Origin: a virus
Direction: 5' to 3' (one strand)
Length of the DNA stretch: 22,432 nucleotides
Virus record (IMG/VR): IMGVR_UViG_3300025133_000639
Coordinates: 1-22,432 of that record
In this document: piece by piece, positions 12,962 through 18,955 of the stretch
Numbering within the stretch: position 1 is the stretch's first letter
Layout: every line of letters begins with the position of its first letter
Translations under genes and position numbers: made by a program
Notes under the pieces: generated by a model
The model's database searches: none
What the model was told of the DNA's origin: nothing
The model's input: only the letters and a program-made list of their open reading frames with translations

Positions 12962-13133
12962 AGTGCTCACCCAATACCATTAAAAGTGTTTTCTCAATGT
13001 GCTCATATAGCTCAGCAGACTCATCACTTAAACAATCTGAGCTGTTTATTATCAGACGTTTTCTCAGCTTTGCTAGTGTCCTCATTGTCTGCGCCCTGCC
13101 AGTGTTTAAGTCTTGCTCTGATGATTTCGACAT
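12930..13133 (-). CDS. Small overlapping ORF, uncertain
   Basis: The ORF has 67 codons from ATG 13133, preceded by a purine-rich GAGAGAG stretch. It overlaps the last 110 bp of the methyltransferase gene and the first 32 bp of the terminase small subunit in other frames. The product is charged, with a helical segment SDESAELYEHIEKTLLMVLG and a basic end RKEKEHRR. No family was recognised. Because the methyltransferase C-terminus (QLRLF) looks genuine and the remaining gap is only 62 bp, this may be an accidental reading frame. Confidence 0.25.
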   Translation of the reverse strand: MSKSSEQDLNTGRAQTMRTLAKLRKRLIINSSDCLSDESAELYEHIEKTLLMVLGEHYGRKEKEHRR

Positions 13134-14298
13134 ACTCTAACTCTCTCTCTATACCAATAAAATTAAACTGCTCTAGATGAGCAGCAATAAGTGTAGTGCC
13201 AGAGCCTGCAAAGGGCTCTAATATTGTGCCATCTGGTGGTGTGATAAGCCGGCACAAATAGCGCATAAGGGCTATAGGCTTAACAGTGGGGTGTATGTTA
13301 GCTCTCAGTGGATGGTTAGTAGGTTTATTAGGTCTAGTCTCTTTACCACTCATGGCCCCCGCTTTTTTAAGTTCAAACATTTTCAATCCTGCCTCACGCT
13401 CTACTTTGCTCGCTTTAGCACAGAAATAAAAACGGCCTGTTGAGCCCATAGCTTTTAACGCTATCTCATCAAGCATAATATTAGCAGGCCATCTGCCTTC
13501 TTTTTCATCAAGTGGGATATTATGCCCTATATTATAATTGCCATAGCTCCACTCTGACTCACTAATCTGCTGTTGCTTTTGCACTTTGTCAAACTCTACT
13601 TTTTCACTTTGTGCATACGCTATTCTGTTCTCATCAATATTTAGCCCACCCACCCCATGCAGCAGGGTGTTATTAGCTATGCTACCTTGTGGTGCTTTTC
13701 TAGCTAAGATAATCGGTTCATAAGCGGGCTTCAGTGCAGTGCCCCAACCTGCCCACTGTTTAGCATCTTCAGTCTGTGGCTCATAAGATGGCACAGGGTT
13801 TGATGTGAGCTTTTTAGCTTGTTCTATATCGCAAGCTTGATAGCTAGAAGCGGTGGGGATAGCACGCCCTCTATTTTCACAGCCTGATGCTTTATCAATG
13901 CCTAAACTAATATTATGTGATTTTGGAAAACCAGATGAGTATAGCCACATGATTGTGTCTCTGATTTCAAAGCCTGCTAATCTAAGTGATATACTCATTA
14001 AGTCCTGAGTACGTGAGCCGGCAAAAGCTAAGATGTGCCCCCCATGTTTTAAGACTCTGTGTACTTCACGCCATAGCTCAGGTGGCGGCACCCATGCATC
14101 CCATGATTTACCCATGAAGCCTGCGCCCTTTGGCTGCCATGTTTCACCTGCCGCCCATGCTTTTAAACACTCAGCAACATTAGCTGTTGAGGTATTACCT
14201 AGGCCATATGGAGGATCTGTGACAACGCTATCCACTGAGCAGTCTGGCAATGCCTTTAACTCATTTAGACTATCTCCATGAATTAGCATATGACACAT
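13024..14298 (-). CDS. Site-specific DNA N4-cytosine/N6-adenine methyltransferase
   Basis: The protein has 424 aa. The catalytic motif DPPY is at residues 28-31, followed by a target-recognition stretch. HPTVKP is near 336-341 and the S-adenosylmethionine-binding FAGSGTT at 363-369. The order, catalytic motif first and AdoMet motif last, is that of beta-class amino-methyltransferases. It ends KQLRLFK. No restriction endonuclease gene is adjacent, so it is an orphan phage methylase that probably protects or marks the phage genome. DPPY allows either adenine or cytosine N4 methylation, and the target sequence cannot be read from the gene. ATG 14298 has no clear ribosome site; ATG 14289 is an alternative. 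Confidence 0.9.
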   Translation of the reverse strand: MCHMLIHGDSLNELKALPDCSVDSVVTDPPYGLGNTSTANVAECLKAWAAGETWQPKGAGFMGKSWDAWVPPPELWREVHRVLKHGGHILAFAGSRTQDLMSISLRLAGFEIRDTIMWLYSSGFPKSHNISLGIDKASGCENRGRAIPTASSYQACDIEQAKKLTSNPVPSYEPQTEDAKQWAGWGTALKPAYEPIILARKAPQGSIANNTLLHGVGGLNIDENRIAYAQSEKVEFDKVQKQQQISESEWSYGNYNIGHNIPLDEKEGRWPANIMLDEIALKAMGSTGRFYFCAKASKVEREAGLKMFELKKAGAMSGKETRPNKPTNHPLRANIHPTVKPIALMRYLCRLITPPDGTILEPFAGSGTTLIAAHLEQFNFIGIERELEYVEIIRARLKHWQGADNEDTSKAEKTSDNKQLRLFK

Positions 14299-16133: not shown

Positions 16134-16583
16134 TTAAAATGGTGATGTGTTTTGTTTTGGGTAGCCCCATGGGCTTGCTGGTTCAACTGTTGCGCTCTGT
16201 GGTGCACGCCATGTGCTTGTGCTTTCTGCATTGCTCGGTTCTGGGCCTAGCAGTTTTGATGAGTCTTGGTATTGTTCTTTTTTATCAAGTGCACGCCAGA
16301 TGATGGCCTTGACCTCCCATATCCTGCGCCCTTCAAATTCATATGATTTAAGTGTGCCCTCAACATATACAGTCACACCTGATTTAATCTTTTGAACTGC
16401 CATTTCAGAAGTGCGCCCCCATATTTTAATAGTGTGCCACTCTGTGCGCTTCTGCCATTGCCCTGAATTGTCTTTGAAGTTTTCATTAGTTGCTAAAGTA
16501 AATCGAGCATATTGATCAGCCCCTGCTGATTTCAACACTGCATCTTGTCCGGCATTTCCAATCAATGTGATTTTATTTATCAT
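16134..16583 (-). CDS. ssb: Single-stranded DNA-binding protein
   Basis: The protein has 149 aa. The N-terminal OB-fold begins MINKITLIGNAGQDAVLK and contains FTLATNENFKDNSGQWQKRT, EWHTIKIWGR, and VYVEGTLKSYEFEGR, the standard order of bacterial SSB. The C-terminal third is a Ser/Pro/Ala/Thr-rich tail ending NTSPF. Bacterial SSB normally ends in an acidic DDDIPF-type peptide that binds partner proteins. Here the final PF is kept but the acidic residues are gone. The start overlaps the upstream RHH-like gene by 11 bp. It coats single strands made during phage replication or recombination. Confidence 0.93.
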   Translation of the reverse strand: MINKITLIGNAGQDAVLKSAGADQYARFTLATNENFKDNSGQWQKRTEWHTIKIWGRTSEMAVQKIKSGVTVYVEGTLKSYEFEGRRIWEVKAIIWRALDKKEQYQDSSKLLGPEPSNAESTSTWRAPQSATVEPASPWGYPKQNTSPF

Positions 16584-17015: not shown

Positions 17016-17951
17016 TTACATACCAAAAACTTTGAAAGCTTCATTATTGCTGACACGTCTATCACGCCCTGTCATCTCAACAAGCTCACCAAACATATCA
17101 ACCAGCCTGCTCATCACTGCATAATTTCGATGAAAGAAGGCACCTAATTGCACAGGCCTCATGTTTGTACTCATCACAATACTCAGGCTGCCAGACTCCC
17201 ACCGCTCATAAATGTGGCCAATCATCTTGACAGTGTCACGATAGACCCAATCACCCTTCTCAATATTGCCACCAATACCACCAAGCTCATCTAATAAAAG
17301 CAACTCAACACCCTCAAGCCATCTATTATTTTCGATGGGTGAACGTGCACCATGATTACCCCATGTGCTTTTAATGCGCTCTAGCATTTCACTGTGCGTT
17401 ATATATAGAACACGGTAATCATTGAATATAGCTTCTTTAGCTAAAGCATAATGCAGTGTAGTTTTGCCATTGCCCTGAGGCCCATATAATAAAACAGACG
17501 GTGATCTTTGCTCATGTGCCTGACCGTACCTCATCCAAGTAAGCAGACTGTTGATTCTGTGGCGTTGCTCTGAGCTATCCCACTCGTACATATTCAGATG
17601 GGCATCTTTAGCATCAGCCGGCAACTCCAAATCATTTAAGCGTTTCAAGCGTCTTCTGGGCCGTTCACAGTCCTCACATATATGCACTGCACTGCTCTCA
17701 TCTGCTTGTGTCACTCTTACCCACCCATCCATGCAACGCCCACAAAAGGGCACGGGCTTAGATTGATAACACGCTGATGCCGGATAAATAAAGTTTTCAG
17801 TCTCTAGATTTGAGGCATTTAAATGTTTGAATGATTGCAGCTGTTTTGGTGGTCTGGCTTCTCGATCATTCACAATTGTTTTAAGTGAGTGTAATAGTCC
17901 ATTGATAGCAGGGCTATCACCTAGGCGTTGCATGGGTTTAGATTTGCTCAT
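17016..17951 (-). CDS. DnaC-like helicase loader (lambda P / IstB-type AAA+ ATPase)
   Basis: The protein has 311 aa from ATG 17951, with AAAGGTGG five bases upstream. An N-terminal zinc-binding cluster has C70xxC73 and C92xxC95. The AAA+ domain has Walker A GPQGNGKT at 157-164, Walker B LLLLDE at 217-222, sensor MSTNMRP near 260 and a candidate arginine finger in SRLVD near 281. This is the arrangement of DnaC-type loaders that bring the replicative helicase to the origin. The gene overlaps the initiator gene by 14 bp, like the lambda O-P pair in order and function though not in family. It is intact and of normal length. Confidence 0.85.
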   Translation of the reverse strand: MSKSKPMQRLGDSPAINGLLHSLKTIVNDREARPPKQLQSFKHLNASNLETENFIYPASACYQSKPVPFCGRCMDGWVRVTQADESSAVHICEDCERPRRRLKRLNDLELPADAKDAHLNMYEWDSSEQRHRINSLLTWMRYGQAHEQRSPSVLLYGPQGNGKTTLHYALAKEAIFNDYRVLYITHSEMLERIKSTWGNHGARSPIENNRWLEGVELLLLDELGGIGGNIEKGDWVYRDTVKMIGHIYERWESGSLSIVMSTNMRPVQLGAFFHRNYAVMSRLVDMFGELVEMTGRDRRVSNNEAFKVFGM

Positions 17952-18606
17952 AAAAGCCACCTTTCAAGAGTTTAATGTTTAGATGTAATTTAGCTATGTC
18001 AACACGTTCTGCATGACCCAAATTGCTACCATATGATTCTATGGTCTTGATCATTTCAGCTGTGAGTGTGTGTGTAGTTCTGGGTAGTGCGTTGTGTTTA
18101 GTTTGTGTTTGCTCTGTGTCAATATCAGTATTTTTAAAAGCAGAATGGGGCTGATCTAATTGTAAGTTAATTGTTTTATAATTGTTTAATTGTAAGGGCG
18201 CAGATTTTGCACCCCTAGCAGTGCATATTTTGCACCCCCCCTGTGCATATTTTGCACCCCTAGCAGTGCATATTTTGCACCCCTGTGCATATTTTGCACC
18301 CCCCTGTGTTTCTTGCTTGCTCATCATAGCGTGTGCATCTAATGCAATGACCGGCAATACTCGACCATTAACATTAGACCATGACCTATTGATGAGCTTC
18401 TGTGCTTCTAATTGTTTCAAGCTGTTTTGTATTGAGCGTCTTGAGAGTGCAGACAAGCGCATAAGCTCTGGCAGTGTAGCAACGCCACGCCATGTGCCCC
18501 AATCCACTTTTAACAGCAATGCAAACACTGTCAGTTTAACAGCTGCGCTCAAGTCTGTGCGTTGCAATATCATGCGTCTGATATCACATTCATTTATTTT
18601 GTTCAT
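17938..18606 (-). CDS. Replication initiator, lambda O-like, carrying the origin
   Basis: The protein has 222 aa from ATG 18606, with AGGAGG five bases upstream. Residues 18-75 form a winged helix-turn-helix (AVKLTVFALLLKVDWG, TLPELMRLSALSRRSIQNSL, LEAQKLINRSW) of the sort used by phage replication initiators. Residues 100-136 are a repeated linker: GAKYAQG-CKICTAR twice, then GAKSAP. It is encoded by the iterons at 18199-18302. An AT-rich tract follows. The C-terminal helical domain probably contacts the helicase loader encoded next. Repeats of this CKICT/GAKYA kind encoded by origin iterons are, as I recall, seen in other phage initiators. The two CKIC pairs might bind metal, but they more likely reflect the DNA repeats. 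Confidence 0.75.
   Translation of the reverse strand: MNKINECDIRRMILQRTDLSAAVKLTVFALLLKVDWGTWRGVATLPELMRLSALSRRSIQNSLKQLEAQKLINRSWSNVNGRVLPVIALDAHAMMSKQETQGGAKYAQGCKICTARGAKYAQGGCKICTARGAKSAPLQLNNYKTINLQLDQPHSAFKNTDIDTEQTQTKHNALPRTTHTLTAEMIKTIESYGSNLGHAERVDIAKLHLNIKLLKGGFYEQI
18154..18195. other. AT-rich putative DNA unwinding element
   Basis: Only 6 of 42 bases are G or C. AATTGT occurs at 18158, 18169, 18180 and 18188, the first three exactly 11 bp apart, giving tandem 11-mers. It lies four bases from the outermost iteron, as the unwinding region does beside lambda iterons. Confidence 0.65.
18199..18302. repeat. Five origin iterons (TGCATATTTTGCACCCC)
   Basis: Exact 17-bp copies lie at 18222-18238, 18244-18260, 18267-18283 and 18286-18302. 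A fifth copy with two mismatches is at 18199-18215. Start-to-start spacings are 23, 22, 23 and 19 bp. Each contains TGCA-N5-TGCA, a short dyad. They lie within the initiator gene beside an AT-rich tract, which is the layout of a lambda-type replication origin. Confidence 0.85.
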
Positions 18607-18623
18607 AGTCACCTCCTATACAA

Positions 18624-18652
18624 TACATATATAAGAGACTTCACACTGTCAA
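18624..18652 (-). promoter_or_regulatory. Leftward early promoter
   Basis: TTGACA on the minus strand (18647-18652) is followed by TATGTA after 17 bases, or TATATG after 15. It leads to AGGAGG and the initiator ATG. The -35 box overlaps the left operator arm. Confidence 0.55.
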
Positions 18653-18694
18653 AGATTTATTTGATTATTTAGTCAAAGTTTTATTTGACAGTGT
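18643..18694. promoter_or_regulatory. Tandem operators in the divergent control region
   Basis: TCAAA-N6-TTTGA occurs at 18649-18664 and 18673-18688, 24 bp apart. The outer ends extend into an 11-bp perfect inverted repeat, ACACTGTCAAA with TTTGACAGTGT. Each outer arm holds a TTGACA -35 box facing outwards, so a protein bound here would cover both divergent promoters. Confidence 0.65.
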
Positions 18695-18713
18695 ATTTTA
18701 TAGATGATAATCA
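18685..18713 (+). promoter_or_regulatory. Rightward early promoter
   Basis: TTGACA (18685-18690) is followed by GATAAT after 15 bases, or TAATCA after 17. It leads to the Cro-like gene starting at 18746. The -35 box overlaps the right operator. Confidence 0.55.
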
Positions 18714-18745
18714 TTATACATCTTCAATATACAGAAAGTTTAAAC

Positions 18746-18955
18746 ATGACTTCAGATAAACGCAAAGCACTGAAAAGCACAATCAAGCTGCAGGTGCTAG
18801 CACACATGACTGGCATAAGTATAAATTACTTGAGCTTGATCATTAACAATCACAGACCTTGCACTGATGACTTAGCAGAACGTCTAGCATACTGCGCTAA
18901 CAGACTGCTACTTGATCAGCCAATATTTAAACCAACTGACTTTCAAACCAAATAA
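18746..18955 (+). CDS. Cro/CI-like helix-turn-helix regulator
   Basis: The protein has 70 aa from ATG 18746 (MTSDKRKAL). In-frame codons before it run through the promoter region and have no ribosome site. Residues 13-50 form a compact HTH: LQVLAHMTGISINYLSLIIN, then NHRPCTDDLAERLAYCANRLL. The LAxxTGISxxYLSxIxN pattern is typical of XRE/Cro regulators. It is the first gene of the rightward operon, right beside tandem operators, so it probably binds them and controls the choice of direction. No CI-type repressor with a C-terminal dimer domain is present in this window. Confidence 0.72.
   Translation: MTSDKRKALKSTIKLQVLAHMTGISINYLSLIINNHRPCTDDLAERLAYCANRLLLDQPIFKPTDFQTK

Follow-up and report, generated by a model that had tools for sequence, protein, structure and literature searches.

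A probable lambda-type replication origin inside a diverged phage initiator gene and a proposed residue-base rule for its iterons

Phage lambda provides the closest described case of a replication origin lying within the gene of its own initiator. Lambda O binds the iterons and the strands open at an AT tract (PMC7466680), the AT-rich tract measures 38 bp (PMC3349717), and both sources treat iteron binding and unwinding by O. In the J02459 sequence, on which we ran the lambda comparison, the iterons occupy positions 39034-39118 inside O. Among plasmids, the chimeric pPR9 Rep has a PF13730 N-terminus, and its DNA-binding domain and origin were exchanged as one block (PMC5703833). Here we analyze a 22,432-nucleotide stretch of viral DNA (the window) for which an earlier note had proposed a lambda-type origin in an O-like initiator gene, with iterons and AT-rich DNA in the same order as in lambda. 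J02459 bears out that order, with AT-rich DNA on the 3′ side of the in-O iterons, and the proposed layout is confirmed in the window and recurs across clusters of related initiators. As judged from sequence, the region is very probably the replication origin of this phage, of the lambda in-gene type and recognized by the phage's own initiator.

Iterons, AT-rich tract and the initiator protein

The initiator gene opens with GTG at 18612 or, likelier and as in relatives L004-L007, with ATG at 18606. Within it lie five copies of GTGCATATTTTGCACCCC (plus strand, at most 3 mismatches), and the elements of the putative origin are as follows.

17938..18612, minus strand: O-like replication initiator gene, 224 aa (from the ORF list; phrog_270 "replication initiation protein", E=0.001)
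18285..18299, minus strand: iteron 1 in coding order, dyad GTGCA-AAATA-TGCAC, frame 1 (GAKYA)
18266..18280, minus strand: iteron 2, identical dyad, frame 2 (GCKIC)
18243..18257, minus strand: iteron 3, identical dyad, frame 1
18221..18235, minus strand: iteron 4, identical dyad, frame 2
18198..18212, minus strand: iteron 5, diverged dyad GTGCA-AAATC-TGCGC, adjoining the AT-rich tract
18154..18195, minus strand: AT-rich tract and probable unwinding element, 42 bp of which 6 are G/C, unequaled in AT content by any other 42-mer of the window

The copies at 18221, 18243, 18266 and 18285 are identical and the copy at 18198 has 2 mismatches; the count of four identical iterons plus a diverged one and their location in the initiator reading frame had been called correctly, and the identical unit needs correction from 17 to 18 bp. 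On the coding strand the iterons read GGGGTGCAAAAT[A/C]TGC[A/G]C five times at spacings of 19, 23, 22 and 23 bases, each forming a 15-bp 5-5-5 dyad GTGCA-n5-TGCAC within an array that spans 18198-18302. Shuffles led us to expect 0.08 copies by chance, with 0 of 100 reaching five, and the de novo dyad score of the gene was 56, whereas 100 codon shuffles and 100 dinucleotide shuffles each peaked at 30. A sixth dyad-like site returned by the dyad search in the wHTH coding part (TTGCATTAGATGCAC) was rejected, being by eye not kept in L003/L004, and terminator-like hairpins over the iterons were discounted as by-products of the dyads. The copies use two frames here, yielding the peptides GAKYA and GCKIC, and relatives use a third (VQNLH); because the same 15 bp encodes differing peptides in different frames, the iteron appears to be kept as DNA and not as peptide.

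The AT-rich tract at 18154-18195 directly follows the last iteron on the coding 3′ side. Its reported length and composition (42 bp, only 6 G/C, bordering the iterons) were borne out, and it falls within the third least stable 45-bp stretch of the window. On the coding strand it contains four ACAATTA repeats, at 18187-18193, 18179-18185, 18168-18174 and 18157-18163. In many gammaproteobacterial initiators (L096, L156-L162, L165), GAACC/AACCAGTCA repeats (peptide RTSHSFEPVNEP) come after the iterons in place of the ACAATTA repeats of the window, and are possibly a second conserved origin element. The GC skew of the window shows no switch at 18.2 kb and gives no support to an origin there.

The protein encoded around the iterons and the neighboring replication genes comprise the following features.

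18340..18591, minus strand: predicted winged-helix (wHTH) DNA-binding domain, residues 8-91 (AlphaFold2 model and Foldseek)
18436..18438, minus strand: codon of Arg59, residue 2 of the recognition helix, which covaries with base 3 of the iteron half-site
17944..18060, minus strand: conserved C-terminal segment, residues 185-223, a candidate loader contact
17016..17960, minus strand: DnaC/IstB-type AAA+ helicase loader (PF01695, E=1e-9; phrog_50 "DnaC-like helicase loader", E=1.4e-27)
16134..16583, minus strand: single-strand DNA-binding protein (SSB) of the same replication module (PF00436, E=2e-22)

An AlphaFold2 model built with four related sequences (mean pLDDT 51.6, about 65-85 in the wHTH part) places helices at residues 8-17, 23-35, 47-54 and 58-70 and strands at 74-81 and 84-91, the latter predicted to form a two-stranded wing. 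The best Foldseek matches are wHTH proteins, at E=0.002 at best; with a model of such low pLDDT this comparison establishes a predicted wHTH domain only and nothing finer. Residues 98-183, where the iterons are encoded, are unstructured in the model. The C-terminal segment, whose fold is weakly predicted, is conserved with relatives of 48-50% identity, and the linker is not. Initiators with the same layout are 95-98% and 48-50% identical to this one, identity to other clusters of iteron-bearing initiators is 10-36%, and a search of named phages for direct relatives found none. The protein has no match to Pfam PF04492 Phage_rep_O, which lambda O itself matches at 6e-36, and it scores 15.1 bits (E=0.02) with PF13730 HTH_36, under the curated cut-off of 25 bits. 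The description "O-like initiator" therefore stands for function and domain order and fails for Pfam membership, the initiator PHROG match being weak (phrog_270, E=0.001); by sequence comparison the protein is assigned to a broad O-like wHTH group mainly via its family and is outside the O family by Pfam.

The last bases of the initiator gene are shared with the loader gene, whose PF01695 and phrog_50 matches uphold the earlier reading of the next gene as a DnaC-like loader. Its matches are limited to AAA+ DnaC/IstB families, with no homology to lambda P, and the sole named-phage match found is a Listeria phage protein at 22%. Neither a helicase nor a primase turned up among the genes examined near the origin. 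The interval that separates the initiator from the divergent HTH gene 18704-18955 holds, at 18643-18694, an imperfect inverted repeat of 25 bp (ACACTGTCAAAGATTTATTTGATTA / TAGTCAAAGTTTTATTTGACAGTGT) and a promoter-like site; an early switch probably has its operator region here. The predicted protein of 13024-14298 contains DPPYG, adjoins probable terminase genes and looks like a DNA methyltransferase.

Recurrence of the layout in other phages and bacteria

Scanning viral contigs for TGCAnAATnTGC site pairs, together with loci from related scans, gave at least 130 loci with candidate ORFs. In at least 80 of the 130 listed loci the iterons lie inside a wHTH ORF, and the same dyad occupies the same place in initiator genes of at least 29 clusters that are less than 40% identical. 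Among the 29 listed clusters, 26 match phrog_270 and 23 the O-like phrog_391, PHROGs of replication initiators, and 22 of 29 representatives match PF13730 HTH_36 at E<=0.01. Across the listed initiators the iterons use three frames, compared with two in the window. The 60 bases past the last iteron are more AT-rich than the gene in 24 of the 29 listed clusters (Wilcoxon p=6e-5), and the 60 bases before the first iteron show no such enrichment over the gene in the same clusters (p=0.45). The same layout is present in bacterial contigs from genomes labeled Rothia, Thermoactinomyces, Gammaproteobacteria, Saprospiraceae, Kordiimonas and Gemmatales. Pattern matches in tail and other structural genes were rejected, as they look like simple-repeat matches.

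A second sample consisted of 18 named phages picked by protein similarity to one O-like initiator, because selection by repeats was to be avoided. A blind dyad search found repeated dyads just past the wHTH part in most of them, and in 11 of the 18, dyads with a 5-bp spacer are matched or beaten by no more than two shuffles (SfV, ST64B, SfII, mEp013, LESphi3, D14O, ST15-VIM1phi2.1, D72, phiV039C, Thermus Cumys and Synechococcus JY37). The arms vary among named phages (GTGCA, TGCCA, CGTCA, GTGAC, GTGTC, CGGCA, TGGCG), and the 5-bp spacer is constant. Separately, the initiator genes of Erwinia phage Pavtok (L152) and Klebsiella phage LASTA (L153) have no GTGCA dyads; by eye they contain GGTTC-n5-GAACC-like dyads, and the proteins have Ser at the Arg59 position.

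Palindrome pairs of GTGCAAAATTTGCAC, about 30 bp apart, occur in Lachnospiraceae and Holdemanella contigs (L016, L017, L018, L024, L026 and related loci), some of them directly upstream of a small regulator-like gene and outside any initiator; these are apparently an operator of the same sequence, in separate use from the initiator iterons. Such pairs in some Lachnospiraceae genomes, and the fact that wHTH folds belong mostly to transcription regulators, favor a reading in which the window repeats too are an operator through which the wHTH protein represses or counts its own operon, with the origin at another place. We consider this very unlikely: the iterons sit 300-400 bases inside the gene, far from the divergent promoter region 18613-18703, the AT-rich tract past the iterons in most listed clusters would be needless for an operator, and the next gene is a helicase loader.

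A recognition-helix residue and an iteron base

The first hint of a link between initiator and iteron came from the recognition-helix alignment: where half-site position 3 is G, the initiator carries Arg at the position of Arg59 of the window, and other initiators do not. We drew the covariation from hundreds of related phage sequences compared as non-redundant clusters. After scans for dyads with T or C at half-site position 3, Arg was present at the Arg59 position in 27 of 30 TGCA clusters and 2 of 19 others among the matches listed (p=2.5e-8), and the R59 column was the sole outstanding wHTH column in this first comparison (z=12.1, next 2.8). A prediction fixed before scans for GGCA and GACA dyads held, with Arg in 21 of 25 GGCA clusters and 3 of 14 GACA clusters among the matches listed (p=3e-4). 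Pooling the 88 clusters among the matches listed gave G with Arg in 48 of 55, A with Gln in 6 of 14, T with Asn in 8 of 17 and C with Thr in 2 of 2, with modest counts outside the G class. Over these listed matches the R59 residue is associated with half-site base 3 at Fisher p=1e-11, and the R59 column (z=13.5, next 3.8) is the sole wHTH column strongly tied to an iteron base; the exceptions among them are 7 of 55 G-type clusters that lack Arg and 5 of 33 others that have it. Q62 gives a weaker signal, which distinguishes TGCA from GGCA. The window conforms, with Arg59 in the initiator and G3 in the iterons. Gln, the most frequent residue in the A-type clusters, is well known from protein-DNA contacts to pair with adenine, just as Arg pairs with guanine.

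On the wHTH tree, which rests on only 82 columns, members of an iteron class occur at scattered positions (29 changes, compared with 30.4 for shuffled labels), and path-disjoint tree pairs of differing class were concordant in 15 cases, discordant in 0 and tied in 10 (sign test p=6e-5). Arg-type members are frequent in the seed profile, a bias that cannot explain the rule because Arg would then be favored in every class. In the gene, about 130 bases separate the codon of Arg59 from the iteron closest to it; therefore shared coding cannot explain the link, and direct reading by the wHTH domain can. The covariation is strong indirect evidence, and binding of the iterons by the initiator itself, as the earlier note had supposed, is well supported at the level of sequence comparison. 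We judge it likely that O-like wHTH initiators share an in-gene, dimer-on-dyad 5-5-5 plan and that the Arg59-aligned residue sets base 3 of the half-site, pairing Arg with G, Gln with A, Asn (or Ser/Gly) with T, and Thr with C. In-gene origins of the lambda kind are already known; our search of the open-access literature returned nothing relevant on the iteron sequence and no report of an initiator-iteron specificity rule.

Two further alternatives bear on the same evidence. That the iterons are an origin bound by another protein, either host DnaA or the HTH protein of 18704-18955, is compatible with the layout taken alone and is highly improbable given that the covariation involves the wHTH protein encoded around the iterons. 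That the repeats were selected as a repetitive protein linker, with the DNA repeat a by-product, is scarcely credible and already contradicted by the frame changes: the copies do sit in a linker predicted to be disordered, and yet their spacings of 19, 23, 22 and 23 bases put them in two frames in the window and in three across the family, with DNA kept and peptide differing, and dyad symmetry and base-residue covariation are meaningless for a peptide.

With the in-gene origin read by its own initiator as the preferred reading, we infer the following course for origin firing. The wHTH domain would sit as a dimer on each 15-bp dyad, in keeping with the dyad symmetry and the covariation, and the G at the third position of every GTGCA half-site would be read by Arg59, in the opening part of the recognition helix. 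By analogy with lambda, several bound dimers may assemble into a complex like the O-some, and the strain it exerts would open the AT-rich tract at 18154-18195. The C-terminal segment, held on the flexible iteron-encoded linker, may then recruit the DnaC-like loader, which would place the host DnaB helicase. The binding sites lie inside the initiator gene, and therefore site and reader would travel together between phages. Most phage origins are unmapped, and iteron-initiator specificity is usually solved case by case. An in-gene dyad with a one-residue rule would allow origin position and part of the specificity to be read off the sequence of many phage initiators; if the rule is true, an initiator gene predicts its origin and part of the origin sequence in phages of many bacterial phyla, and the old question of how origin and initiator change specificity jointly becomes testable with natural protein variants.

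Comparison with described origins

Compared on sequence, the window and the lambda origin share their plan and not their sequences. In both, the iterons lie in the initiator gene just past the DNA-binding part with the loader gene next (P in lambda), the iterons are dyads with an A-rich middle (in lambda CCCTC-AAAAC-GAGGG, of the CCCTC-n5-GAGGG type), spacings are similar (20, 24 and 23 in lambda; 19, 23, 22 and 23 in the window), several frames are used (three in lambda, two in the window), and an AT-rich tract follows on the 3′ side (38 bp and 42 bp). Unlike lambda, which has four annotated iterons, the window has five with GTGCA arms, an initiator with a short, different C-terminus and no Pfam Phage_rep_O match, and an AAA+ DnaC-type loader in place of P. 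A PDB sequence search with lambda O found no solved relative.

The O-like phage initiators with HTH_36 (PF13730) or PHROG matches, including those of SfV, SfII, ST64B, Pseudomonas LESphi3 and Thermus phage Cumys, resemble the window in having a wHTH domain followed by in-gene 5-5-5 dyads, in their initiator or O-like annotation and in following the same residue-base rule. They differ in that the window protein is 10-36% identical to other clusters and falls below the Pfam cut-off, and in that several have P or DnaB neighbors whereas the window has DnaC. The RepA_N plasmid initiators (pSK41 Rep and the chimeric pPR9 Rep) likewise combine a wHTH N-terminus, a central linker encoded by an in-gene origin and a C-terminal partner domain, and the window initiator profile matches RepA_N structures at E=0.002 only. 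In contrast to the window, these are plasmid proteins, the wHTH domain of pSK41 Rep is of a different family, and the C-terminus binds DnaG and not a phage loader. The block exchange in pPR9 agrees with a joint transfer of reader and site.
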